Source: Clostridiaceae bacterium
GTDB taxonomy: Bacteria; Bacillota; Clostridia; Acetivibrionales; DUMB01
Direction of reading: 5' to 3'
Assembly (NCBI GenBank): GCA_012840535.1
Contig: DULF01000107.1
Coordinates: forward strand, 1-35,036
Length of the DNA: 35,036 bases
Shown piece after piece: positions 12,522-26,994 of this stretch. Position numbers and translations under genes: made by a program. The first letter of the stretch is position 1; each line of letters starts with the position of its first letter. The notes under the pieces are model-generated. The model did no database searches. It was given only the letters and a program-made list of their open reading frames with translations, and was not told where the DNA came from.

Positions 12522-12549
12522 ACCTTTTATGGTAATCTAAAATACTATA
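12522..12549 (+). promoter_or_regulatory. Sigma-K-like promoter
   Basis: AC (12522-12523), exactly 17 bases, then AATACTATA (12541-12549). The sigma-K consensus is AC-N17-CATAnnnTA; only the first C of the -10 differs. It would give a leader of about 50 bases before ATG 12606. Mother-cell sporulation expression is inferred. Confidence 0.45.
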
Positions 12550-12605
12550 AGATTAGAGAATGAAAACCGGTAAAGATTGTTATGCCCAAAAATGGAGATT
12601 ACAAC

Positions 12606-13250
12606 ATGGCTGAAGGTAAAACCGGCCGGACTTTAAATTTTAGTTCGCACATGCTGCCTGATGAATTGGTATGTATACAGGCTCCAATAGTTTTACACCA
12701 ATTATCTGTAAGGAAAAACATAACAAGGAATATTGCGCTGACCCCAAAGCCTGATTTACTGCATCCTTTTTTTTCTTTTGAATGCATAAAAAACTTTCAT
12801 ATTTCAAATATAAAAATACTGTCTAAAACAGTTATAAATAAAGATGCTGCTTTGAAAAAAAACTATGAGTTATCAATAAGCACTATATATAATCTCGCAT
12901 ATTCAGACGGGAATAATCAATTATTGCAACCTGATGAATCAATTTTTAACCTAACACTAAACAACATATGCTGCCCACGTTTTAGATTAAAGTGCTACCC
13001 GAAGGAATATCCCTGTGTTTTTCCGACAGCAATTGATGAAGATGGAACAATTATTGAGGTGGACGCATTAGCCAAGGATCTCTGGAATATGTTATGTCCC
13101 TGCACCGGAGCATTAATTATTGAAATTGGTGTATTGTTTTTCATCAAATTTGTGTGTTATAAGCAGATTGTTGTTCCTTCTTATACAAAATTCCCCCCGG
13201 TACCAAGGCATGAGGATACCGAACAGCAAAAGCTTAAGGAAGGAGGTTGA
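12606..13250 (+). CDS. Hypothetical protein, possibly spore-envelope (weak SPOCS-like)
   Basis: I do not recognise this 214-residue protein with confidence. ATG 12606 has GGAG eight bases upstream; the in-frame ATG at 12582 has no ribosome site. The middle section ('ALKKNYELSISTIYNLAYSD', then 'ESIFNLTLNNICCP') is faintly like the strand pattern of SPOCS (DUF3794) domains of spore-coat and morphogenetic proteins, but this is only an impression. Cysteines cluster late ('NNICCPRFRLKCYPKEYPC', 'MLCPCTG'), and 'ALIIEIGVLFFIKFVCYKQIV' is hydrophobic. It is followed after three bases by the next gene, whose ribosome site overlaps its stop, so the two are translationally coupled. Confidence 0.6.
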   Translation: MAEGKTGRTLNFSSHMLPDELVCIQAPIVLHQLSVRKNITRNIALTPKPDLLHPFFSFECIKNFHISNIKILSKTVINKDAALKKNYELSISTIYNLAYSDGNNQLLQPDESIFNLTLNNICCPRFRLKCYPKEYPCVFPTAIDEDGTIIEVDALAKDLWNMLCPCTGALIIEIGVLFFIKFVCYKQIVVPSYTKFPPVPRHEDTEQQKLKEGG

Positions 13251-13253
13251 CAA

Positions 13254-14408
13254 ATGTCCTCCTTAAACATTTTAGATAATGGACAATCTCTAAATATTTC
13301 AACACAGGATACAACCAAGTTGGTTTTGATTTCTACGGCCCGTATGGAAACAGCTCTGTCAAAGCTTATTGGAACTATAGCGGACGGACTGTTGCTTACA
13401 TCGCAAGTATGCGGGTTTGATAAGCATTTTTTCCTCAGCAGTGTTCTAAATATGAACAAAGCTGTTGACGGGTTTTTAATAAATGCCATTAAGCTTCAAA
13501 TGCTTCTTCAATTAAGGATTGATTATATTCTTCGCGTTTTTGATACTATGCCCGGAATAAAAGCGGAGGACAGTCATGCTGCCGGCATACAGGCGACAGA
13601 GCATAATCCGCCATGTCCTGTATTGCCTGAACACCCAACCGAGGCCAAGGGAAAATGCAAATATTCCGAGGGAGATTACAAATACTCCAAGGGAAATTAT
13701 AATTATTCCGAGAAAGATTACAATTATTCCAAGGAAGATTACAAATATTCTTTAAAAGGAAGAGGAGTGGGACTTGTTTCTGCCCATTGTGACCCATTCT
13801 ACAAAGGCATAGCCATCATACAGGCTTATATTAACCACATTGATAAAAATTCAAAAGACAATTTTCTTTGCTATAGCGTACATAAAGGGAATACTATGTG
13901 GATATTTTCCGCTTTCCCCACCAGTGTGAAAATAAAACTCTTTTCGGGAGAAAAATCTAAAAAAGCTATAGTAGAAGGAACAGGATCAATCGTATACAAA
14001 GAACGGTACAGGTCCGACAACGTAGATACTGCAAGTTTTATATTAACTATCCGGTATGAAGACAATGAGTCCAAAGGGAGCAGCTTTCAAATTGCAATAA
14101 AACCGGACAAAAAACCTGATTTCTGTCATGATAGCGGAGAAATCAGTCTTGAATCTCCCAGTCTTATAATTGAGACTGCTGGCGGTAACAGTACAAATTC
14201 ATACCTGGGCTTTAATGCAAATGAAGAATTTAAATTAGCCAATGATATATGCGCTGAAGCGAAGAAAATCCAATCTGTTTTGGAAGAACTAAAAGATAAG
14301 GTTGGCAGCAAATATACAACGTCTTTGGAAGAGCTTATTAATTTACTTAAAAGAACCGGACAGATTATAAACCAGGCATTAATACAGGAAATGAATTTGG
14401 GAATATAG
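13254..14408 (+). CDS. Repeat-containing protein of unknown function (probable spore protein)
   Basis: This 384-residue protein has no family I can name. Residues about 20-95 are helical ('ARMETALSKLIGTIADG', 'NAIKLQMLLQLRIDYIL') and resemble the small protein at 18302-18613 ('AMEEAALSNILNSEGE', 'NVARLQMLIQFKLE'). Residues 136-169 are a Tyr/Ser-rich heptad repeat, KYSEGDY-KYSKGNY-NYSEKDY-NYSKEDY-KYSLKG. A mixed beta region follows, and a C-terminal coiled-coil-like helix ('AEAKKIQSVLEELKDKVG'). AGGAGG overlapping the previous stop gives ATG 13254. The link to spores comes from the shared module, the adjacent YheC/YheD operon and the sigma-K-like promoter. Confidence 0.7.
   Translation: MSSLNILDNGQSLNISTQDTTKLVLISTARMETALSKLIGTIADGLLLTSQVCGFDKHFFLSSVLNMNKAVDGFLINAIKLQMLLQLRIDYILRVFDTMPGIKAEDSHAAGIQATEHNPPCPVLPEHPTEAKGKCKYSEGDYKYSKGNYNYSEKDYNYSKEDYKYSLKGRGVGLVSAHCDPFYKGIAIIQAYINHIDKNSKDNFLCYSVHKGNTMWIFSAFPTSVKIKLFSGEKSKKAIVEGTGSIVYKERYRSDNVDTASFILTIRYEDNESKGSSFQIAIKPDKKPDFCHDSGEISLESPSLIIETAGGNSTNSYLGFNANEEFKLANDICAEAKKIQSVLEELKDKVGSKYTTSLEELINLLKRTGQIINQALIQEMNLGI
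13659..13760 (+). repeat. 21-bp in-frame tandem repeat (about 4.8 copies)
   Basis: Units start at 13659, 13680, 13701, 13722 and 13743 with consensus AAATATTCCRAGGRAGATTAC. They encode the heptad [KN]YS[EK]x[DN]Y. No spacers separate the copies, and the reading frame is kept throughout. Confidence 0.92.
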
Positions 14409-14425
14409 AGAAAAGGGGATAGTAA

Positions 14426-14483
14426 AAGGTAAGTGGACACCCCTGCTGATTAACTTATTGTTGCAGGAGTGTTCCTGTACCTT
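14426..14483. terminator. Imperfect hairpin between convergent genes
   Basis: AAGGTA..GGACAC.CCTGC and GCAGG.GTGTTCC..TACCTT form a long imperfect stem midway between the stops at 14408 (plus) and 14532 (minus). It probably ends transcription from both sides. It shares a GGACAC-type core with the other palindromic repeats of the window. Confidence 0.6.
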
Positions 14484-14531
14484 ATTTCTCCCTATGACTT
14501 ATTCCTTCTCTTTCCTTAATTACTCATTATC

Positions 14532-14747
14532 TTATCTTCCGCTGTTCTTCTTTCCGCTGAATCCGGCCAGTGATTTCGCATAATATAGTATTCCGGTTTT
14601 TAGAGAGTAATACAGCGGTTTATCGTGGATATCAAGGGCAATACTCGGGTCAGGATCGCGGTTGTTGACTTCGATAAGCCAGAGATGCCCTTCCCTGTCA
14701 ATACCAATGTCAACACCAAAGTTTCCGCAATTAACCCCCAAGCTCAT
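14532..14747 (-). CDS. YheC/YheD ATP-grasp protein, C-terminal part (frameshifted)
   Basis: This frame encodes the missing end of the gene that starts at 15888. 'GVNCGNFGVDIGIDREGHLW' and 'LIEVNNRDPDPS' are the final ATP-grasp strand with the metal-binding Glu and Asn, followed by the family's usual tail. The frame joins the upstream part at a run of five G on the minus strand (14739-14735): removing one G turns 'CTT GGG GGT TAA' into 'CTT GGG GTT AAT' and restores 'DELGVNCGNFG'. An ATG at 14747 is in this frame, but independent translation is doubtful. Confidence 0.8.
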   Translation of the reverse strand: MSLGVNCGNFGVDIGIDREGHLWLIEVNNRDPDPSIALDIHDKPLYYSLKTGILYYAKSLAGFSGKKNSGR

Positions 14748-15888
14748 CTAAAGCATTGCAAACCTTTATAGCAAAAAATTCAATTTTTTCTTTCAACGGA
14801 TATACAACCTTTTTATCCGCTGAAAATAACAGACTTAAAGCATCAATCGCGGGTAGGGCTGTACCTCCGCTTGAAATATTGCTTACAACGCTTCCCCTTT
14901 CTCCCCGCCGGCCAATGACAGCTTTACAAACCCAAACGCCGGCTTGATTTTTTTGCATTATACAGCGGAAGTCTATTTTTCCTCCCTTAAACTCAATAAG
15001 TTCAAGAGCCTGTTGAATCAGGTACCTCCCGTCGTAGAAACGCTTTTGCAAAAAGTCAATTGCTTCGCCTAAATCTTTTAACTCTATGCTATGGTTTACC
15101 CCATCTTCACGATATTTAAAAACGAATGTATCATCATTCTTGCTCACCTGGACAATGCCACGGCCTTGAAGTCCGTAAACAGGTTTGATATATATTTTCC
15201 CATACATTTCAACCAAATCAAGCACATCCTGGTATGACCTGTATAATGATGTACAAGGTAAGTGATGGCCTATTTCATTATTTTTTGAAAGCCACTGGTA
15301 CAAGTCCCACTTGCTGAAATAGCGGCTGTTGAAAATTTTGTCTCCTATAATGGATAAAAAATGGTTTTTCCATTTCCCGCTAAGGCCCACTGTACGGTAA
15401 ATTGACTGAGGATATGGAAATATGCCTCTTTGCCAGTTGTTTGTGTTTGGATTAAAACAGTAACCTTCTATTTGAAGGTTTGCAGTATCCACTTTATCCA
15501 GTGCAAACACGACAACAGCCCCATGAAGTTTTGAGTACTCCCTTACATAATCCAACATTTTGTTCAAACATGAAGTTGTTAAATATTTGCCTTCTTCTGC
15601 CACCAGAAGTCCAATAAACGGCCCTATTTTAATTTCGTTTTTGTCCACGGCAATTTCGTATATTGGGTAATCCGGAATATGCATTTTCTCTATAAGTCTC
15701 CGGGAAAGCATGATGTGTTCCTCGGGCACATCGTTGTCAATTTTTATGCTAACATAGTGTTTTTGGCTTCCAAAAGACAGAATTGCGAATTTTTTCTTCT
15801 CAAGATTGAGCATGACAGCTTTCCTGGGATTTATAACCAGCTCTGAATACTTGCCTGTACATCCTTTTATCAATACTGAATTATTCAT
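14731..15888 (-). CDS. YheC/YheD ATP-grasp protein, N-terminal and central part (frameshifted)
   Basis: Members of this family are annotated as endospore coat-associated proteins; by fold they are ATP-dependent carboxylate-amine ligases. The N-terminal region (about residues 1-110, ending 'IAVDKNEIKIGPFIGLLV') precedes the ATP-grasp core: 'IYIKPVYGLQGRGIVQV' (ATP lysine and glycine-rich loop), 'GRYLIQQALELIEF', 'DFRCIMQKNQAGVWVC' and 'VVSNISSGGTALP'. The frame stops prematurely at 14731; one G too many in a G5 run separates it from the rest of the catalytic site, and the repaired protein would be about 451 residues. Start ATG 15888 was chosen over TTG 15900. It is the last gene of the six-gene operon and a paralogue of the protein before it. 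Confidence 0.88.
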   Translation of the reverse strand: MNNSVLIKGCTGKYSELVINPRKAVMLNLEKKKFAILSFGSQKHYVSIKIDNDVPEEHIMLSRRLIEKMHIPDYPIYEIAVDKNEIKIGPFIGLLVAEEGKYLTTSCLNKMLDYVREYSKLHGAVVVFALDKVDTANLQIEGYCFNPNTNNWQRGIFPYPQSIYRTVGLSGKWKNHFLSIIGDKIFNSRYFSKWDLYQWLSKNNEIGHHLPCTSLYRSYQDVLDLVEMYGKIYIKPVYGLQGRGIVQVSKNDDTFVFKYREDGVNHSIELKDLGEAIDFLQKRFYDGRYLIQQALELIEFKGGKIDFRCIMQKNQAGVWVCKAVIGRRGERGSVVSNISSGGTALPAIDALSLLFSADKKVVYPLKEKIEFFAIKVCNALDELGG

Positions 15889-15924
15889 TTTAACCCCCAA
15901 CTCCTAGTCCTAATCTCTATATAC

Positions 15925-15983
15925 TATACCCCTCATCACTCTCCGAACCGTGTAAGAGAGAGGGCATAAAGGAGGGGTGTATA
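15925..15983 (-). repeat. Hairpin across the stop codon between the two YheC/YheD genes
   Basis: TATACCCCTC (15925-15934) can pair with GAGGGGTGTATA (15972-15983) with a two-base bulge, and CTCTC/GAGAG lies inside. It includes the stop of the upstream cistron. It could limit read-through or mark an RNA processing site, but this is inference only. Confidence 0.4.
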
Positions 15984-17270
15984 CCTTATGGAAAGGTATG
16001 TGTCTCTATCCATCTTTTTGAACCCTTTAAAGCTTGGAAAAACATTTGCTTCAATAAGCCATAAGTTATTATCAGTGTCAATTGCTATATCAATGCCAAA
16101 TTCCGCAAAATGTTCTCCTGAATCATCCATAAACAAACAAAACTTTAAACATAAGTCATTTATTTGTTTTGAAATTGTATTAAAGTCTCCTGAAAAGGCC
16201 CGATGCAAAGCCTCATTCAGTGATAATGCGTAACCTCCTCTTGATATATTGGTCAGGTGGCTTCTATTGCTGGAAATTCTGCATTCAATGCCGGTACATC
16301 CCCATGTTTTATCCTTTCCTTTTTGCATAACAACCCTTATATCAAAAAGCGAATTGCCGATTCTTGCCAGGGGCAAGTATTTTTGAATAATATATTTATT
16401 AAATAAATTTTGATTAATTGCAAAAAATTTCTCAAAAGATTCCTTGTCATAAAGGACTGTAACTATTGGATTCCTATACCTGTAATCAGTAATTTTATAA
16501 ATCGTGTCATTCTTTTCGATAACGCATATCCCCCTGCCCCTTGACAAATCAACCGGCTTAAATATTACCTTACTGTGGCGGTCAATAAATTCCCTGACCT
16601 GGTCAAAGTTAAGGGATAATTCAGTTGGAGGAATGTGTTTGCATAATTCACTGTCCGTTCTTAAGTATTCAAATAATTCATATTTTGAGAAGCGGTAGGA
16701 ATTAAAAAGCCTTCCGCCGGTAATTTCCATCAGCATTTTTATATAAGAGGGATTTGAATGGAAATCCCTCCTGTAAATCACTTCAGGGAGCGGAAAACAT
16801 CCATATTCCCAGGATGATGCGGCAATATTGTAATACAGCCCGTACGCAATTCTTTTTTTCCAGTCAACGGATTTAGGTGAAAATGCATATATCAGCCCTC
16901 CAACTTTGTTGTATATCCCAAACCTGTCAGAATACTTCTCCATATGCCTGGGAGTATAGCGGTGGGTATGAATGCCAAGCAAAAAGCCTATAACCGGACC
17001 TATTGCTACACTGGAATCTGTCACCTTTACCCGATAAACCAATGATTCAGGTATCATTAGTTTTTTCATTAGCTTATCGGAAATCCTTATCCTGCCGGGT
17101 TTTTCAAAAGAACCGTCTCCCATTGTCAGGTCTTTTGAATATTCAACGCTTGATCTGACCGACATATCTCCAAATACTACATTATCCTGTATATAACCGC
17201 TCTTCTTTAATTGTGAAGGCAAATAAATTATTTCATACTCAGAAGGAACAACTTCAATTTTAGCCCACAT
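15936..17270 (-). CDS. YheC/YheD-type ATP-grasp protein (intact)
   Basis: This 444-residue protein has the family's N-terminal region (to about residue 110, 'VTDSSVAIGPVIGFLLGIHT') and a complete ATP-grasp domain. Visible elements are 'VIFKPVDLSRGRGICVI' (lysine and glycine loop), 'KYIIQKYLPLARIGNSLFDI', 'RVVMQKGKDKTWG', 'LTNISRGGYALS' and the metal-binding end 'FGIDIAIDTDNNLWLIEAN'. It should activate a carboxylate with ATP and join it to an amine; the substrate is unknown. ATG 17270 has AGGAG seven bases upstream and leaves a 13-base gap; a longer frame to 17330 would overlap the gene before it. It is the best candidate active ligase of the operon. Confidence 0.92.
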   Translation of the reverse strand: MWAKIEVVPSEYEIIYLPSQLKKSGYIQDNVVFGDMSVRSSVEYSKDLTMGDGSFEKPGRIRISDKLMKKLMIPESLVYRVKVTDSSVAIGPVIGFLLGIHTHRYTPRHMEKYSDRFGIYNKVGGLIYAFSPKSVDWKKRIAYGLYYNIAASSWEYGCFPLPEVIYRRDFHSNPSYIKMLMEITGGRLFNSYRFSKYELFEYLRTDSELCKHIPPTELSLNFDQVREFIDRHSKVIFKPVDLSRGRGICVIEKNDTIYKITDYRYRNPIVTVLYDKESFEKFFAINQNLFNKYIIQKYLPLARIGNSLFDIRVVMQKGKDKTWGCTGIECRISSNRSHLTNISRGGYALSLNEALHRAFSGDFNTISKQINDLCLKFCLFMDDSGEHFAEFGIDIAIDTDNNLWLIEANVFPSFKGFKKMDRDTYLSIRYTPLLYALSLTRFGE

Positions 17271-17283
17271 AGTCCTACTCCTT

Positions 17284-18267
17284 TTAATTCCCGGGTAAGG
17301 TGGCAAATACACCGTTCTCTGATAGTACATTTGCGTATTTCATGATATTTTTGCACAGTTTTATACGTACACTTCTGTTTTGTTTTTTACTTAACAGCCT
17401 GTCATCCCACCCACCGAAGTTCAGAAGGTAGGGGTTAGCACGCATATCCAGTACAAAATCAATAAAACAAATGCCAATGTCAGGAATAAAGCAATTTATA
17501 CAATCAATTATTTGCAAGGAAGCAGTGTCTATTTTTTTTGCAAGATTGTCATTAACAGTTTCATTATGCGAGATTATTGTTTTCAAAACAATTTCCCATT
17601 CACTGTCAGGTTTTTTTTGCATATAAGCTCTTACAACAAAAATTTTATTTTTATATGTGATCAGGCCTGGTGTCTTTAAAAGCAGCCATTTCCCTTTATG
17701 CACAATTGAATGGATTGTATCTTGAATATCAAACTTATGGCAACTGCTGCAACCATATAAACTATATAATTCAAAACCGTAATCGACCTTTTTGCTGTAA
17801 ATGATCCTGGACAAACTTGGCCTGTTTTCAGGTTTCAGTATAAAACTGCTTTTTTCTGAGATGCCGGTGTATGCGTCTTCCCTGGAATAATTTATAAAGG
17901 GAAGCACAAATTTTTTGGTTTTGCTGTTTGAAAGCAGCATCTCCATTATTTGCAACTGGTTAAACTGGTTTGTTGCATTGATTAAGGTAACATTTTCAAC
18001 CTCTAATAAGCTTCTTAATTTTTTTATGTCCGATTTTCTTTTCTGTACTGCAAAATTAAAAATAAGCATGGGGAGTGAAACCTTTACAGTACTAATTTTT
18101 TCTTCCGAAACCAGGCTCCCGAATACTGTTCTTTGCAGAAGGTTTGTATTTGGCATAGAAAAGACTATAACAGGTATTCTCTTTTCCTTGGCTACATTCT
18201 TAAATATATTATGTAAATACCTGCCAATAGTCTTTTCACTTTTTCTGTTGCATAAAATGCCAATCAT
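17284..18267 (-). CDS. Degenerate YheC/YheD-like ATP-grasp protein
   Basis: This protein of about 327 residues keeps the outline of the neighbouring ATP-grasp proteins: 'SSFILKPENRPSLSRII' matches the ATP-lysine strand, 'IFVVRAYMQKKPDSEWEIV' matches 'FDIRVVMQKG', and 'GICFIDFVLDMRANPYLLN' matches the last strand. It lacks the GRGI glycine loop, and the metal-binding 'LIEAN' is replaced by 'LLNFG', so both usual ligands are gone. A CxxC ('YGCSSCHKF') stands where the loop would be. It also lacks the N-terminal barrel of its paralogues. It is probably a non-catalytic partner. Start ATG 18267 has GGAG nine bases upstream; an earlier ATG at 18327 overlaps the previous gene and lacks a site. Confidence 0.7.
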   Translation of the reverse strand: MIGILCNRKSEKTIGRYLHNIFKNVAKEKRIPVIVFSMPNTNLLQRTVFGSLVSEEKISTVKVSLPMLIFNFAVQKRKSDIKKLRSLLEVENVTLINATNQFNQLQIMEMLLSNSKTKKFVLPFINYSREDAYTGISEKSSFILKPENRPSLSRIIYSKKVDYGFELYSLYGCSSCHKFDIQDTIHSIVHKGKWLLLKTPGLITYKNKIFVVRAYMQKKPDSEWEIVLKTIISHNETVNDNLAKKIDTASLQIIDCINCFIPDIGICFIDFVLDMRANPYLLNFGGWDDRLLSKKQNRSVRIKLCKNIMKYANVLSENGVFATLPGN

Positions 18268-18301
18268 TTGCTTCATCTCCGATTTTAAAATAGTACTTGC
18301 A

Positions 18302-18613
18302 TTATTCTTCCAGATCTTCATCTTCATTAAAGTCCATTATTTTTTGAAGCAGTTTTTCTGCATCTTCAAGTTTGAATTGAATCAGCATCTGCAACCTGGC
18401 TACGTTTTTTATAATACTGTTCACCGATTCATTTACAGAAACCAACTCATCTACATCACATGCCACATTTTTTGTTTTCTGGATTATTTCACCCTCTGAA
18501 TTTAGAATATTTGATAAAGCAGCCTCTTCCATTGCAATGGAATTGATGATATCCGTGATTGCTTGTTCAAGGCTTACAGATAGAATTGGAATTTGAGACA
18601 TGGACATATGCAT
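18302..18613 (-). CDS. Small helical protein ('SIAxEEAALSNILNSEGE' family)
   Basis: This 103-residue, mostly helical protein contains 'IINSIAMEEAALSNILNSEG' followed by 'EIIQK'. The same pattern occurs in many spore-former proteins, alone or at the end of collagen-like and exosporium-type proteins. The second half ('VNSIIKNVARLQMLIQFKLE') resembles residues about 70-90 of the protein at 13254-14408. The tail is acidic. A structural or assembly role in the spore envelope is inferred from context. ATG 18613 has GGGGG nine bases upstream. It lies inside the operon between the DUF2156 and degenerate ATP-grasp genes. Confidence 0.75.
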   Translation of the reverse strand: MHMSMSQIPILSVSLEQAITDIINSIAMEEAALSNILNSEGEIIQKTKNVACDVDELVSVNESVNSIIKNVARLQMLIQFKLEDAEKLLQKIMDFNEDEDLEE

Positions 18614-18644
18614 TTTTAAATACCCCCATAAAAACATATCAATA

Positions 18645-18653
18645 TAGATTATG
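18645..18653 (-). promoter_or_regulatory. Possible internal sporulation -10 element
   Basis: The minus strand reads CATAATCTA, a perfect match to the sigma-K -10 (CATAnnnTA), about 30 bases before ATG 18613. No AC is at the expected -35 position (TC instead), so it is weaker than the operon promoter at 21089-21116. Confidence 0.3.
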
Positions 18654-18686
18654 CAGTGTTAACATAATATGATACACGTTATCTTA

Positions 18687-19658
18687 TTATCTTAACTGAA
18701 TTTCATATCTTTTTAAGTTTAGCACCGGCCTGAATTTATCTTTGAAAGCTCTTAGCCCTCCAGGTCCAAGATCACTTCCTGTGTTCATATATTCTATACG
18801 CGGATTAACCTTGTTTATTTTACGGGCAAACTCAACAATCAAAAATTCAGATAAACCATCATACCCATACATGAATTTTGACAGGCATCCCCATGACTGT
18901 CCTGTAGGTAATTCGCTGCCGGAAACCAGACCTATGATTTTGCCGCCATCCTCTACCAGCAGGATAATATGATTCAATTCTTTGTAGTGTTTGATTATCT
19001 CACGGAAATAGACTTTGTCAAATATTCTTGAGTATTTTTTGCCTGAAGTATTTCTCCAATGCTCGCCTAGCTGTATTACCTTTTCAAAGTCATCAGGCCT
19101 ATACTCTCTTACAGTTATATTGCGGTAAAGGTTGCGAAACCTATTTATTTTTTTCCTTACGCTTCTGAATTCTTTCCCTTCCAAAGCAACAAGTTTTTTG
19201 ACCGAAAAATGCTTTTCCAAACCTACCAAAGGAACCGCTTTGAAATGTTCATTATATAATGCCGATTTTTTTAAAAATTCCAGCTGCATGCTGTTTACCA
19301 TTCTTACAACTGACTTTGACTTATCGTGGTTATTCCACTTATAACAATACATCAGACATTTCATTAATACATTCACTACATCTTCAGGCTTTCCCTTGCC
19401 AAAAGGCAGGCACATCAGATATAGCGTACCCTTTCTTGAATATGCGAATGTAACCAACATTCCGTCAATGATTTTCCAAAGTATCTTTTTGCTGCTTGAC
19501 TGTCCCGACGCCCACAGGTATGCAAAGTTTGACGACCAGAGATTAGCCGGATAAGCGGTGTTTTTAATGAACTCATCATACATTCTAATATCTTCCAGTT
19601 TTATTTCGTTAAAGCTCCAACTGCCAAGTTGTATATTATTTGATGAAAACACGGACAA
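18687..19658 (-). CDS. DUF2156 / LPG-synthase-C-like acyltransferase
   Basis: This 323-residue protein matches the DUF2156 type, the doubled GNAT fold of the catalytic end of lysyl-phosphatidylglycerol synthases and related to Fem aminoacyl transferases. Visible points are 'LWSSNFAYLWASGQSSS' early, 'EGKEFRSVRKKINRFRNLY' (basic substrate-binding helix), 'IILLVEDGGKIIGLVSGSEL' and 'RIEYMNTGSDLGPGGLRAFK' near the end. Known relatives move an amino acid from aminoacyl-tRNA to a lipid or peptide; the acceptor here is unknown. No membrane part is present. The start is TTG 19658 with AAGGAG ten bases upstream, 14 bases after the MurF-like gene, clearly the same operon. Confidence 0.85.
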   Translation of the reverse strand: MSVFSSNNIQLGSWSFNEIKLEDIRMYDEFIKNTAYPANLWSSNFAYLWASGQSSSKKILWKIIDGMLVTFAYSRKGTLYLMCLPFGKGKPEDVVNVLMKCLMYCYKWNNHDKSKSVVRMVNSMQLEFLKKSALYNEHFKAVPLVGLEKHFSVKKLVALEGKEFRSVRKKINRFRNLYRNITVREYRPDDFEKVIQLGEHWRNTSGKKYSRIFDKVYFREIIKHYKELNHIILLVEDGGKIIGLVSGSELPTGQSWGCLSKFMYGYDGLSEFLIVEFARKINKVNPRIEYMNTGSDLGPGGLRAFKDKFRPVLNLKRYEIQLR

Positions 19659-19672
19659 GAATACCCATCTCC

Positions 19673-21055
19673 TTACTTTTTAATAGTTATTCTATCCATC
19701 AGGTCATTACAAGAAGCCAGCATTGATGTCTTAACAAGGGCAATGGACTTATCATCCAAGACCTTATTAAGAATTTCATATGCCTGTTCCGAATTTTTGC
19801 AGAAATATACATCCTGCTCTTTCATACCTTTTTCCAATGCCCCGCGGGCAATCTCTTCAGCTCCGTTACCTAACGCAACCAGCTTATTTATTCTCATACG
19901 GGCTGCTTTAGCTCCGATTTCGTAGTGAAATTCATTGCTGTGTTTACCAAGAAGAGACATTTTACCCAGAACCGCAATTGTTTTTTTGCCTCTCGAAAGG
20001 CGTTTAAGGAGTTTTAAGGCTGATTCCGCTGAGGTAGGATTGGTTGACCATGTATCATCTACTATTATGCTTCCGTTAATACCCTCGTTGAATTCGAAAT
20101 GCTTTTCAACATTTTCGAAAGATTCAAGCCTGCGTCCTGCCTCTTCTATATCAAAACCAACAGCATATGCCGCAGCAATGGCAGCAGCAGCATTATACAC
20201 GTTGAACTCAGCGTGGCCGGGAATAACAAAATTGTAAACTTTATCATTATGCTGCATTGAAAACTTTATACCTTTTTTGACATGTCTGGTTTTAATAATT
20301 TTAAAATGCGATTTGTCACTATAGCCAAAATAAATAATGTTGCCTTTGAATTTGCTAAAATCTATCTTTTTTATATTTTCGTCATCCGCATTTAAAATAA
20401 TAGTCCCTTTATAACCAAGCCCCTCAAGGAATTCGGCTTTTCCTTTAATATATGCATCTAGGCTTCCAAAACCTTGCAGGTGATCAATCCCTATATTGGT
20501 TATAACGCCTACCTGAGGTTTAAAATACCTGGAAGATAATAATAAATCTCCAGGATAAGCAACTCCCATTTCAAATACTGCTGCCTGCGTATCATCGTCC
20601 ATGCTAAGTAAATATCCTAAATGGCGGAATGCAGAATTGTAGCTCTTGTAGGTTGCGTTAACCTTTAAACGCCCTGAGAGGATGTGCTTGATCATTTCTT
20701 TTGTGGTTGTTTTTCCGCAAGTACCTGTAACACCAATAACAGGGATATCAAAAAGATTTCTATAGAATTCAACAAACTTCCAGTAAGCTTTACTTATATC
20801 AGGTACCCGGATGACTGTAATATTACTGCCGATAAAAGCAAAATCAAAAGGCTTTTCCGTTACCACTGCGCACCGGCAATTTTTTAGTTTTATGCCCGGA
20901 TTTATATCATCATTATGGTATAAGTCAAAAAGCAGAACACCCCGGCCTAATCTCCTTCGCTTTGTAGCGAAATTGTCAACTGTTATATCTTTAGTGCCTT
21001 GAAAAACTTCTCCGCCTATTTCACTAATAATTGTCTTCAAAGGCAAACTCTTCAT
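19673..21055 (-). CDS. MurF-like Mur ligase (divergent paralogue)
   Basis: This 460-residue ATP-dependent peptide ligase carries the Mur P-loop 'GVTGTCGKTTTKEMI', 'VFEMGVAYPGDLLL', 'VGVITNIGIDHLQGFGSLDA' and 'ILNADDEN'. The C-terminal domain has 'IVDDTWSTNPTSAESALKLL' and 'IAVLGKMSLLGKHSNEFH'. Standard MurF adds D-Ala-D-Ala to UDP-MurNAc-tripeptide. Here the N-terminal nucleotide-sugar-binding region is unusual ('ITVDNFATKRRRLGRGVLLF' instead of the DSR..LFVAL..G..DGH pattern), and the 'DDxYNANPxS' motif reads 'DDTWSTNPTS'. A different substrate is therefore likely. It heads a six-gene operon with ATP-grasp and DUF2156 genes behind a sigma-K-like promoter. AAAGGAG precedes ATG 21055. Confidence 0.88.
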   Translation of the reverse strand: MKSLPLKTIISEIGGEVFQGTKDITVDNFATKRRRLGRGVLLFDLYHNDDINPGIKLKNCRCAVVTEKPFDFAFIGSNITVIRVPDISKAYWKFVEFYRNLFDIPVIGVTGTCGKTTTKEMIKHILSGRLKVNATYKSYNSAFRHLGYLLSMDDDTQAAVFEMGVAYPGDLLLSSRYFKPQVGVITNIGIDHLQGFGSLDAYIKGKAEFLEGLGYKGTIILNADDENIKKIDFSKFKGNIIYFGYSDKSHFKIIKTRHVKKGIKFSMQHNDKVYNFVIPGHAEFNVYNAAAAIAAAYAVGFDIEEAGRRLESFENVEKHFEFNEGINGSIIVDDTWSTNPTSAESALKLLKRLSRGKKTIAVLGKMSLLGKHSNEFHYEIGAKAARMRINKLVALGNGAEEIARGALEKGMKEQDVYFCKNSEQAYEILNKVLDDKSIALVKTSMLASCNDLMDRITIKK

Positions 21056-21088
21056 TGCATTACTTACTCTCCTTTGAAAATCTAGTAT

Positions 21089-21116
21089 TATATTATGTAA
21101 ATCCTAAATGAAATGT
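21089..21116 (-). promoter_or_regulatory. Sigma-K-like promoter of the MurF/ATP-grasp operon
   Basis: On the minus strand AC (21116-21115), exactly 17 bases, then CATAATATA (21097-21089). This is a full match to AC-N17-CATAnnnTA. The start would be near 21082, about 27 bases before ATG 21055. It supports late mother-cell expression, though sigma-E has a similar -10 sequence. Confidence 0.55.
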
Positions 21117-21130
21117 GTTATGGAAAAAAG

Positions 21131-21195
21131 AATTGGGGCAACCCTGCTCTTTACAGAGCAGGACTGTCCCTATACCATTACAGCAGGATTGTTTC
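21131..21195. repeat. Palindromic intergenic repeat
   Basis: CTGCTCT-TTAC-AGAGCAG (21144-21161) is a perfect hairpin. Outer arms CAACCCTGCT (21139-21148) and AGCAGGATTG (21182-21191) can pair instead, nearly perfectly. The element also has the GGACTGTCCC motif seen in other repeats of the window. It sits between the citrate synthase terminator and the operon promoter. Confidence 0.6.
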
Positions 21196-21201
21196 TAAAT
21201 G

Positions 21202-21239
21202 AAAAAAGTGGAGGGCTGTCACTCCTCAAGTCCCTCCAC
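21202..21239 (-). terminator. Intrinsic terminator after citrate synthase
   Basis: GTGGAGGG (21208-21215) pairs with CCCTCCAC (21232-21239). On the minus strand the stem is followed by six T. It lies 35 bases after the citrate synthase stop. Confidence 0.85.
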
Positions 21240-21274
21240 CATTAACTTAACTGCATACTTTAACGGAAATTGTG

Positions 21275-23808: not shown

Positions 23809-24666
23809 CTAATCTCTACTCTCCAGGAGTTCCTTTACGTAATTCGGCAATGCAAAGCTTCCTACGTGAATATCAGTGTTATAGTACTTGGTTTTTAAAC
23901 CCAGACTGTTCCAGGCCTCTGCATTGATATCACGAACAGGGTCAAATACCTTTGACGCAAAGCCGAAAAGCCAGTGGCCTGACGGATAAGTCGGAATATG
24001 TGCCTGATACACTTTGCAAATTGGGAAAAATTCCCGTATGCGCACATGGGCCCGCTTCATGGATTTTGCATACTCGCTATAATATGGGTTTTCGTGCTGA
24101 TTAACAAGAATTCCGTTGTCTTTCAATGCCTTAAAGCAATTGCCGTAAAATTCCTTAGTAAAAAGGCCTTCCCCCGGTCCGAAAGGGTCGGTCGAGTCTA
24201 CTATGATAAGGTCGTATTCATTTTCCTTTCTGCGGACAAACTTTAGCCCGTCCTCAAAATAAAGGCGCACTCTTTCATCATCAAGCTTGCAGGCTGTTTG
24301 CGGAAGATACTCCCTGCAAACATCAACAACCAGTTTGTCTATTTCAACCATGTCAATTTTTTCAACAGAAGAGTATCTGGTCAGTTCACGTACTGTACCA
24401 CCATCCCCTCCGCCAATAACAAGCACATTTTTAATGGAAGGATTTGTCGCCATGGGCACATGCACAATCATATCATGATAAATAAATTCATCCTTTTCGG
24501 TAACCATCATAAGGCCATCCAAAGTCAGAAATCTGCCAAATTCCTTCGACTCAAAAACATCAATCCTCTGGAACTCACTCTGCCCGGAGTACAAATGTTT
24601 ATTGACTTTTATCTCAAAACGCACATTTTTAGTATGCTGTTCTGTATACCACAATTCCAATTCCAT
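23809..24666 (-). CDS. speE: Spermidine synthase (polyamine aminopropyltransferase)
   Basis: This 285-residue enzyme transfers aminopropyl from decarboxylated SAM to putrescine or a related amine. Seen are the N-terminal beta domain ('LELWYTEQHTKNVRFEIKV'), the SAM-type loop 'VLVIGGGDGGTVRELTRY', 'DMVEIDKLVVDVCREYLP' and 'YDLIIVDSTDPFGPGEGLFT' with the catalytic Asp. TGGAGGA lies eight bases before ATG 24666. The start overlaps nothing and lies four bases after the speA stop, so the gene is the third cistron of the polyamine operon. Confidence 0.95.
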   Translation of the reverse strand: MELELWYTEQHTKNVRFEIKVNKHLYSGQSEFQRIDVFESKEFGRFLTLDGLMMVTEKDEFIYHDMIVHVPMATNPSIKNVLVIGGGDGGTVRELTRYSSVEKIDMVEIDKLVVDVCREYLPQTACKLDDERVRLYFEDGLKFVRRKENEYDLIIVDSTDPFGPGEGLFTKEFYGNCFKALKDNGILVNQHENPYYSEYAKSMKRAHVRIREFFPICKVYQAHIPTYPSGHWLFGFASKVFDPVRDINAEAWNSLGLKTKYYNTDIHVGSFALPNYVKELLESRD

Positions 24667-24670
24667 AAGA

Positions 24671-26122
24671 CTATTCCTCCACAATGTTTATTTTTTCTAT
24701 TTTCATGTCTTCTGTTCCTGTAAGGAAACTTCCCTTTTCTTTAGCATAGAATATATATTCAAGCGCTTCCCGTGTAATTTTCTCTCCCGGCGCAAGTACC
24801 GGTATTCCTGGCGGATAGCACATTACAAACTCCGCGCATACTTGCCCTTCGCTCTCTTCTATCGGTATAGATCTCTTGCTGCTGTAAAATGCCTGTTTCG
24901 GTGTCAAAACCACAACAGGATCAATGTATTCGTATTCCAGCATTCCTGTTTTATCTCTGGAGTAAAGGCGCTTTATCTCAGAAAGTGCAGATACAAGCCT
25001 CTCCAGTGCAAGTTCCCTGTCACCTACCGAAATTATTGCAAGAATATTTCCAACGTCCCCAAACTCAATTTGTATTCCGTACTCATCCCGTAGTATATCA
25101 TAAACCTCAACACCGGCAAGCCCAATGTCCCTGGTATGGATAGATAGCTTTGTCCGGTCAAAATTAAAAAAATCATCACCGTTTATAAGTTCCGTTGAAA
25201 AAGCATAGTAGCCCCCGATTTTGTTAATTTCCTCCCTGGCATACTGTGCAAGGCGGCTTACCCTTTCAAATATTTCTTTTCCTCTAAGCGCTAGGTTCCG
25301 TCTTGAAATATCAAGAGAAGACATTAAAAGATATGACCCGCTTGTTGTCTGGGTCAGATTTATAATCTGCCTTACATACCCGGCATTAAGCCTTTCGCCA
25401 ATTAACAAAATTGAACTTTGTGTCAAAGACCCGCCTGTTTTATGCATACTTACCGCTGCCATGTCCGCTCCTGCCTTCATGGCTGCAACAGGCATGCCGT
25501 CTCCAAAATAAAAATGAGTGCCATGAGCCTCATCGACCAGTACTGCCATATTGGCTTCATGCGCAAGTTCCGTTATTGTTTTTAAATCAGAGCACACCCC
25601 ATAATAGGTAGGGTTATTGACAAATACCGCCTTTGCATCCGGATTCTCCATGATGGCCTTTCTGACATCGGCAATGGACATTCCAAGGGGTATTCCAAGC
25701 CTCTTGTTCAAGCCGGGATTTACATAGACCGGAATTGCACCGCTTAAAATCAGGGCATTAATAGCGCTACGGTGCACATTTCTTGGCATGATTATTTTGT
25801 CTCCCTGTTTGCAAACGCTCAGAATCATTGCCTGGACAGCCGATGTAGTCCCATTTACCATAAAAAAGGCATGGCTTGCGCCAAAGGCTTCTGCAGCGAG
25901 CTTCTCGGCTTCACTGATTACAGAAACTGGATGGCACAAATTATCCAAAGGCTTCATTGAGTTTACATCAACAGAAAGGCACTTTTCACCGAGAAATTCC
26001 CTAAGCTCAGGATTTCCTCTTCCCTGTTTGTGCCCAGGCACATCAAAAGGCACAATCCTTCGCGATTTATATTCCAAAAGAGCCTCATAAATAGGAGCTC
26101 TCGATTGTGAAAGTTCCCCCAT
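24671..26122 (-). CDS. speA: Orn/Lys/Arg decarboxylase (probable arginine decarboxylase)
   Basis: This PLP-dependent decarboxylase of about 483 residues is of the Orn/Lys/Arg fold-I type found in Firmicutes. The PLP lysine lies in 'AAVSMHKTGGSLTQSS' (about K228), the cofactor aspartate in 'MAVLVDEAHGTHFYFGDG', and 'PFDVPGHKQGRGNPE' marks the N-terminus. In B. subtilis the homologous SpeA decarboxylates arginine to agmatine; lysine or ornithine cannot be excluded, and no agmatinase is in view. It sits between speD and speE. Start ATG 26122 ('MGELSQSRAPIYEALLEY') matches the family and has a GGGCGG site; an in-frame ATG at 26152 would overlap speD. Confidence 0.92.
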   Translation of the reverse strand: MGELSQSRAPIYEALLEYKSRRIVPFDVPGHKQGRGNPELREFLGEKCLSVDVNSMKPLDNLCHPVSVISEAEKLAAEAFGASHAFFMVNGTTSAVQAMILSVCKQGDKIIMPRNVHRSAINALILSGAIPVYVNPGLNKRLGIPLGMSIADVRKAIMENPDAKAVFVNNPTYYGVCSDLKTITELAHEANMAVLVDEAHGTHFYFGDGMPVAAMKAGADMAAVSMHKTGGSLTQSSILLIGERLNAGYVRQIINLTQTTSGSYLLMSSLDISRRNLALRGKEIFERVSRLAQYAREEINKIGGYYAFSTELINGDDFFNFDRTKLSIHTRDIGLAGVEVYDILRDEYGIQIEFGDVGNILAIISVGDRELALERLVSALSEIKRLYSRDKTGMLEYEYIDPVVVLTPKQAFYSSKRSIPIEESEGQVCAEFVMCYPPGIPVLAPGEKITREALEYIFYAKEKGSFLTGTEDMKIEKINIVEE

Positions 26123-26141
26123 TTTACACCGCCCTTCACAA

Positions 26142-26957
26142 TCAATAGACATTCATGCCGCTAAATATCTCAATCATCTCTTTACGGAGGCTCTCTATAA
26201 TCGCAAGTCTGTGCTTTGGCGGCAATTCATATACATCCTTGTTGAAAAGATAATTCTGCAGTTCTATTTCTTTTATCAGCATTTTTGTGTGGAAAATATT
26301 CGCCTGATATACATTAATATCAAGCGCATCATATTTTTTCAGGGTTTCTTCGTCTATATAATCTTGTATAGATGTTATCTCGTGATCTATAAAGCACTTT
26401 TTCCCGTTAACGTCCCTGGTAAATCCTCTGACACGGTAGTCTATGGTTATTATGTCGGAGTCAAAACTGTCGATAAGGTAATCAAGAGCATTAAGTGGTG
26501 AAATTGTGCCACATGTAGATACATCAATATCTACACGAAAAGTTGCAATAGCGTTGTCCGGATGGTATTCCGGATAAGTATGAACTGTGACGTGACTTTT
26601 ATCAAGATGTCCCACAATTACATCACGGTTTTTTAAAAATGCAAATTCACCACGATTGCATGACTTATCTATTTGCTCGGGTGGCAAAGCTGTTTCAGCT
26701 ATCAACAGCGTAACACTTGCTCCCTGAGGGTCATAGTCCTGCTTTGAAATGTTGAGAACGTGTGCACCTATTATATTTGTCACATCGCACAGGATTTTTG
26801 TCAATCTTTCGGAATTGTATTGCTCGTCAATGTACGCGATATAATCCTTTTGATCCCGCTCATCTTCTGCATAACATACATCATAAATGTTGAAGCTAAG
26901 TGTTTTTGTGAGGTTGTTAAAGCCGTATAATTTCAGCTTATTTGCCAACCCTAACAT
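26142..26957 (-). CDS. speD: S-adenosylmethionine decarboxylase proenzyme
   Basis: This 271-residue SpeD of the E. coli type closely matches '[20 protein letters not shown]' and '[13 protein letters not shown]'. Self-cleavage before Ser in '[16 protein letters not shown]' (about S121) makes the pyruvoyl cofactor. The product, decarboxylated SAM, feeds speE two genes downstream. The first codon could be GTG 26960 or ATG 26957; the ribosome site AAAAGGAA serves either. It is the first gene of the speD-speA-speE operon and has a consensus promoter immediately upstream. Confidence 0.95.
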
Positions 26958-26994
26958 CACTTCCTTTTTATATTAAATAAATTGTCAACTCGAA

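Follow-up and report, generated by a model that had tools for sequence, protein, structure and literature searches.

We analyzed a 35,036-nucleotide (nt) window, the whole of positions 1 to 35,036 of contig DULF01000107.1 from a Clostridiaceae bacterium, and found in it a six-gene ligase operon that converges on a pair of genes for putative spore-surface proteins. The best explanation for this locus, to which we assign a probability of about 0.42, is surface-directed amide ligation, namely, that the genes form a late mother-cell set modifying or working on a layer of the spore surface. In order of transcription, the operon encodes a second, divergent MurF paralog (hereafter MurF-like ligase; 19673–21055), a DUF2156/LPG_synthase_C tandem-GNAT protein (18687–19658), a 103-residue protein with little more than an SIA domain and an acidic C-terminus, EDEDLEE (SIA-only protein; 18302–18613, likely start 18613), a YheC/YheD-like pseudo-ATP-grasp (17284–18267, likely start 18267), and two active-type ATP-grasp ligases, YheCD1 (15936–17270, likely start 17270) and the frameshifted YheCD2 (14532–15888, likely start 15888). 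An open reading frame (ORF) check of the window showed that all six genes lie on the minus strand, none being reversed, and that the gaps from the MurF-like gene to YheCD2 are approximately 14, 73, 34, 13, and 47 nt. Pfam matches were obtained for Mur_ligase_M and Mur_ligase_C (PF08245 and PF02875), LPG_synthase_C (PF09924, 4.9e-20, 72.2 bits), and ATPgrasp_YheCD (PF14398) in all three ATP-grasps. A sequence-only reading of this DNA had listed the same genes, closely spaced and in this order, and had named the same families, all of which we confirmed; its word "divergent" for the MurF-like ligase is apt for the sequence but not for the orientation, as all six genes point the same way. The gene set, its synteny, the promoters, the SIA/BclA link, and the loss and retention of motifs described below are properties of the sequence itself.

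To our knowledge, YheC/YheD ATP-grasps have been linked to spores for two decades with no reaction or substrate assigned; modification of the spore wall by these ligases was reportedly proposed in the Pfam entry and by Iyer in 2009. All three ATP-grasps scored above the curated cut-off of PF14398 (26.8 bits), with 213 bits for YheCD1, 179 (and 41 for its second piece) for YheCD2, and 40.7 for the pseudo-ATP-grasp. The catalytic residues of ATP-grasps (the lysine, D/R, and E-x-N) are kept in YheCD1, whose catalytic motif WLIEANVFPS is intact in the alignment, and in YheCD2, where they were found in the second piece and in orthologs. Across three genera, the third protein lacks the glycine-rich loop and carries substitutions at both metal-binding positions, E and N; as judged from these changes, the degenerate ATP-grasp is a conserved pseudoenzyme. 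The best PDB sequence match of YheCD1 was a weak one to the tubulin polyglutamylase TTLL6 (E 0.024), and a weak TTL/RimK-like profile match was also obtained. YheCD2 is split into a main ORF (15888–14731) and an overlapping remainder (14747–14532), both matching PF14398, with a frameshift near 14731–14747, as had been noticed from the sequence. Its ortholog in G003, a genome from another family of the same order as the window genome (G000), is unbroken, with 450 residues and 58% identity, indicating either recent damage to the window copy or a mistake in the assembly. A programmed frameshift is unlikely because the G003 gene has one continuous frame.

The MurF-like protein scored 263.8 bits against TIGR01143, under the curated cut-off of 288.6, versus 460 for the canonical MurF of the same genome, the gene of which is separate and intact on contig C71. 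Compared with four canonical MurFs, the MurF-like protein lacks DSRK and (D/N)GHDFI of the UDP-binding domain, which are also absent in G003, has lost KGSRGM, and has the DxYNASP pattern replaced, with W-S-T-N-P where Y-N-A-S-P stands. It keeps the P-loop GTCGKTTTKE (GTxGKT) and the central-domain Lys and His (AKAE/GKAE and DHL). The loss of the UDP motifs together with retention of the catalytic core suggests that this protein is probably an active ligase acting on a different substrate. Elsewhere in the window genome (contig C167, 28558–29421), a candidate Mur-ligase match lies in an 884-residue frame, which has the size of a cyanophycin synthetase.

The structure model of the DUF2156 protein (predicted local distance difference test [pLDDT], 84.7) has a tandem-GNAT fold. 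In the fold ranking, one uncharacterized structure came first, followed by MprF, L-PGS/A-PGS, FemX, and Sbb17/Sba18, and matches to tRNA-dependent transferases ranked ahead of acetyl-CoA enzymes. From this predicted fold, the protein is a probable aminoacyl-tRNA-dependent transferase. Together with the Pfam families, these matches agree with the earlier proposal that the folds of the operon are suited to amide-bond formation. In Paenibacillus thermotolerans, three copies of the DUF2156 subfamily lie beside an ATP-grasp and an aminotransferase IV (L073 9073–16688), possibly as an aminoacyl-conjugate biosynthetic cluster; the Neobacillus relatives stand alone.

The SIA domain, approximately 95 residues long in an alignment of 23 sequences, connects the operon with spore-surface proteins. 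No model of Pfam or NCBIfam matched it above the cut-off, and the SIA-only protein was predicted to be a hairpin of two long helices (pLDDT 74). The domain is the N-terminal domain of collagen-repeat proteins with a BclA C-terminal domain (PF18573, 6.7e-43); it also occurs N-terminally in mucin-like proteins with threonine/serine (TTTS)n stalks and in one multicopper oxidase. Still other proteins have it at their C-terminus. A collagen-like protein of Bacillus velezensis carries it as well. Loci with SIA-bearing BclA-like or mucin-like proteins are L063 6789–11063, L066 4956–12404, L067 8750–11544, L181 7151–10679, and L215 6001–8082. The operon SIA-only protein has neither collagen repeats nor the BclA_C head, both of which are found in relatives of its domain. 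Found in Clostridia and B. velezensis alike, the SIA domain may be a general spore-surface anchoring domain. The fusion with a multicopper oxidase (L069 8570–10435) is a possible spore-surface laccase.

A second SIA protein of the window is encoded on the plus strand by a gene that converges on the ligase operon (SIA-stalk protein; 13254–14408; SIA profile match 1.1e-26). It consists of an SIA domain, Tyr-Ser-rich repeats of seven residues, encoded by 21-nt repeats at 13645–13749, and a beta-rich C-terminal domain. The first gene of this converging pair (plus strand, 12582–13250) encodes a partner protein that matched no Pfam family; its family has the signature ELVCIQAPxVLxQ/ELVCIQxxKVLDQ and recurs beside the SIA-stalk orthologs in L059, L061, L064, and L067.

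Promoter elements suggest expression of both transcription units in late sporulation. On the minus strand, a sigma-K-type promoter, ACA-N16-CATAATATA (21089–21116), lies 33 nt before the start of the MurF-like gene, and the same element occupies the same position in G003. Upstream of the converging pair, a sigma-K-like promoter with one mismatch, ACC-N16-AATACTATA (plus strand, 12522–12549), likewise has its counterpart in G003. We looked for the published sigma-K pattern (AC, 15–18 nt, and CATAnnnTA) in the 160 nt preceding each gene and found it for 7/20 MurF-like/SIA genes versus 9/217 other leading genes (p = 7e-5; p values here and below assume that the genomes and genes are independent despite their relatedness), and a 16-nt spacer fits all seven full matches. 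The exact string ACATAATATA, picked after being seen, occurred upstream of 9/20 versus 2/217 genes (p = 1.5e-9). With the spacer fixed at 16 nt, a further separate set of SIA genes gave 3/14 versus 10/390 (p = 0.008), and no sigma-K-type site was found upstream of the B. velezensis SIA gene. The promoter support is thus real but weaker outside the order. The window genome has both sigK and spoIVA.

Terminator-like hairpins delimit the operon. A hairpin with a T run (minus strand, 21120–21195; z −2.84) lies between the MurF-like gene and a citrate synthase gene, a second one lies between them as well (21190–21250; z −1.79), and a bidirectional hairpin separates the two converging operons (14425–14485; z −5.5 and −5.0 on the two strands). 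These hairpins bound the block for which a single transcript had been proposed; the SIA-only gene has its own mother-cell promoter-like element on the minus strand (18643–18675; GTATCATATTATGTTAACACTGCATAATCTATA versus GTATCATCTTATGTTAACGCTGCATACCTTATA, conserved with G003), so that the one transcript may be two nested ones.

Occurrence in genomes is consistent with the link to spores. In the class sample, SIA was found in 13 of 293 genomes, all 13 of them SpoIVA-positive (p = 0.022), and strong YheCD matches in seven, all SpoIVA-positive as well (p = 0.13); because 220 of the 293 genomes (75%) have SpoIVA, the SIA excess is modest and both counts are weak evidence for restriction to spore formers. 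Within the order, SIA occurs in 10 genomes, strong YheCD in 7, and both in 5 versus 1.2 expected (p = 0.001, uncorrected for relatedness), and genes of the two kinds adjoin in G000, G003, and G042. In G042 (L062 8889–14089), two SIA genes have as neighbors a pair of YheCD genes and a radical S-adenosylmethionine gene of lysine-2,3-aminomutase-like type, and the ligases of that locus could use a beta-amino acid as substrate. In Bacillus subtilis, yheC and yheD belong to the sigma-E genes, with SpoIIID as their activator (PMC517825), and the YheD protein surrounds the spore as a shell with strong self-association (PMC7911427). The association with the spore envelope, which the sequence-only reading had suggested, stands on several lines: the promoter, the domain shared with BclA-type proteins, the co-occurrence, and the B. 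subtilis precedent.

The block from the partner protein through the MurF-like gene is syntenic in G003, with the same gene order, 41 to 71% identity, and one extra SIA-only gene. In the converging pair, the identities are 45% (partner) and 41% (C-terminal part of the SIA-stalk protein); in the ligase operon, they are 58% (YheCD2), 69% (YheCD1), 49% (pseudo-ATP-grasp), 52% (SIA-only), 71% (DUF2156), and 63% (MurF-like). No flanking gene is common to the two blocks, which, given the same order, indicates that the block behaves as a unit. Close relatives of the DUF2156 protein and the MurF-like paralog were found only in G000 and G003 among the 58 genomes of the order, many of the comparison genomes being drafts in which gaps can hide genes. 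In G019, the pseudo-ATP-grasp (41% identity), YheCD1, YheCD2, and a third YheCD stand in a row. In G005 and G028, YheCD1 and YheCD2 orthologs occupy separate sites; in G028, YheCD1 has comEC-region genes on one side and a DNA polymerase III delta gene on the other, whereas YheCD2 comes after genes of sugar-nucleotide metabolism. A class-wide search of 392 genomes for the pseudo-ATP-grasp gave one strong match, that of the window itself. With a class-wide profile of the DUF2156 subfamily, the window alone scored high, the remaining matches being distant members, and a scan of 84,980 species with DUF2156 patterns too narrow to prove absence matched Neobacillus niacini twice and Paenibacillus once, the other genes of the block being missing in each case. 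The proposed co-conservation as a six-gene set is weak: apart from the window genome, G003 has the whole set, and only the ATP-grasp trio reaches G019.

In the surface-directed amide ligation that we propose, sigma-K RNA polymerase would transcribe both converging operons in the mother cell late in sporulation, supplying structural spore-surface proteins (SIA-stalk, SIA-only, and partner) and amide-bond enzymes acting on them or on their layer. The SIA helical hairpin would position proteins at the surface of the spore. YheCD1 and YheCD2 would convert a carboxylate to an acyl-phosphate and join it to an amine, with the pseudo-ATP-grasp as a noncatalytic partner or substrate holder; the MurF-like ligase would add a further unit to a non-UDP substrate, and the DUF2156 protein would transfer an amino acid from aminoacyl-tRNA. 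As the likely outcome, a protein or polymer of the spore surface would carry a short decoration made of amino acids or a peptide. We infer the expression, localization, reactions and their order, acceptor, and product, and the reactions are assigned solely from knowledge of the folds. A more specific version, in which the ATP-grasps, Mur ligase, and aminoacyl-tRNA transferase act as a relay that covalently extends or decorates an SIA surface protein with a nonribosomal peptide to give a peptide-tagged exosporium, appears rather unlikely. Several observations weigh against surface-directed ligation. The full set is present in 2 of the 58 genomes of the order; the ATP-grasp trio of G019 stands without SIA, MurF-like, or DUF2156 genes; and the YheCD genes of G005, G028, and G048 do not adjoin SIA genes. 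The genomes of G018 and G040 have BclA-like clusters with no YheCD anywhere, and outside the order, SIA is missing from every strong-YheCD genome in the class sample, indicating that SIA surfaces do not need YheCD enzymes. Furthermore, the block contains no enzyme supplying an amino acid, and the pseudo-ATP-grasp would also fit a structural role for the ATP-grasps.

The enzymes of the mother cell might instead make a soluble nonribosomal peptide or amino-acid conjugate that serves as a pigment, protectant, or signal, with the SIA genes being neighbors only through the shared sporulation regulon. Clusters for peptide metabolites typically combine ATP-grasp, Mur, and GNAT-fold ligases (PMC2922099), and the close DUF2156 relatives of P. 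thermotolerans are in the biosynthetic-looking cluster mentioned above, those of Neobacillus being alone. However, the block has no transporter, tailoring enzyme, or carrier, and in both genomes an SIA-only gene lies inside the operon, which makes this alternative somewhat unlikely. That the ATP-grasps were recruited from enzymes to serve chiefly as structural parts of the spore coat, with any catalysis secondary, would accord with the conserved pseudoenzyme and with the self-associating shell of B. subtilis YheD (PMC7911427), but the catalytic residues of YheCD1 and YheCD2 are kept across genomes, and the MurF-like and DUF2156 proteins retain catalytic or fold features of enzymes; we regard such a role as unlikely.

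The SIA-only protein could also be a carrier, on whose acidic C-terminus amino acids are built as by LysX on LysW or by RimK on S6; this is a special case that overlaps with surface-directed ligation. A C-terminal LEE is common to the two operon-encoded SIA-only proteins and absent from the other seven checked, and YheCD1 weakly resembles TTLL6. Since this tail rests on two sequences, other SIA-only proteins end variously and often in acidic residues, and the block has no protease or release enzyme, a carrier seems improbable. The peptidoglycan of the spore was among the targets suggested by the sequence-only reading, and MurF homology would fit a dedicated cortex peptide pathway on UDP-MurNAc substrates, as would the fact that cortex precursors are produced by the mother cell. 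The MurF-like ligase has lost DSRK, DGH, KGSRGM, and DxYNASP, the canonical murF is separate and intact, the block has no cortex gene, and the promoter is of a late mother-cell type; this pathway is very improbable, and action on peptidoglycan through UDP-MurNAc is the part of the earlier proposal that found no support.

Beyond the hairpins, a LysM cell-wall hydrolase gene (PF07486; 22933–23715) lies between the ligase block and an upstream polyamine set (23809–26960) that comprises S-adenosylmethionine decarboxylase, Orn/Lys/Arg decarboxylase, and spermidine synthase. In G018, the BclA-like cluster (L063 6789–11063) is approximately 2 kb from a citrate synthase gene (L063 3221–4576), the product of which is 64% identical to the citrate synthase flanking the window operon.

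New here are the way in which the genes are combined, the pseudoenzyme among the ATP-grasps, the repurposed MurF paralog, and the connection with SIA. The MurF-like protein shares the P-loop and Mur catalytic core with MurF, CapB, and the Mur ligases of cyanophycin synthetase, but it is not MurF by the curated score and has lost the motifs for UDP-MurNAc and on the D-Ala-D-Ala side. The DUF2156 protein resembles MprF, FemX, and the aminoacyl-tRNA-dependent peptide synthases Sbb17 and Sba18 in predicted fold, whereas it has no membrane domain and its sequence identity to them is approximately 11 to 17%. With LysW-LysX, RimK-S6, TTLL, and PEARL, the proposed role of the locus shares the broad principle that amino acids are attached to a protein; no protein of the locus belongs to these systems by sequence, the nearest sign being the weak TTL/RimK-like profile match. 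Like B. subtilis YheC/YheD, which are spore-associated and controlled by sigma-E/SpoIIID, the ATP-grasps are PF14398 members present in more than one copy, here in tandem. They differ in the company of SIA surface proteins and of further enzymes (the MurF-like ligase and DUF2156 transferase) and a pseudo-ATP-grasp, and in having a promoter of sigma-K rather than sigma-E type. The locus places YheC/YheD next to a family of surface proteins and probably under common control with it, providing a concrete candidate acceptor and a testable enzyme set. Finally, the exosporium filament proteins BclA and BclB are comparable in that collagen-repeat proteins with a BclA C-terminal domain carry SIA at their N-terminus, and they differ from the operon SIA-only protein, which has no stalk or head. 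The exosporium-targeting motif of Bacillus anthracis is reported to be absent from BclA and BclB of Clostridium sporogenes, and the SIA domain bears on the open point of how BclA-like filaments are held on spores lacking that anchoring motif (PMC4942563).

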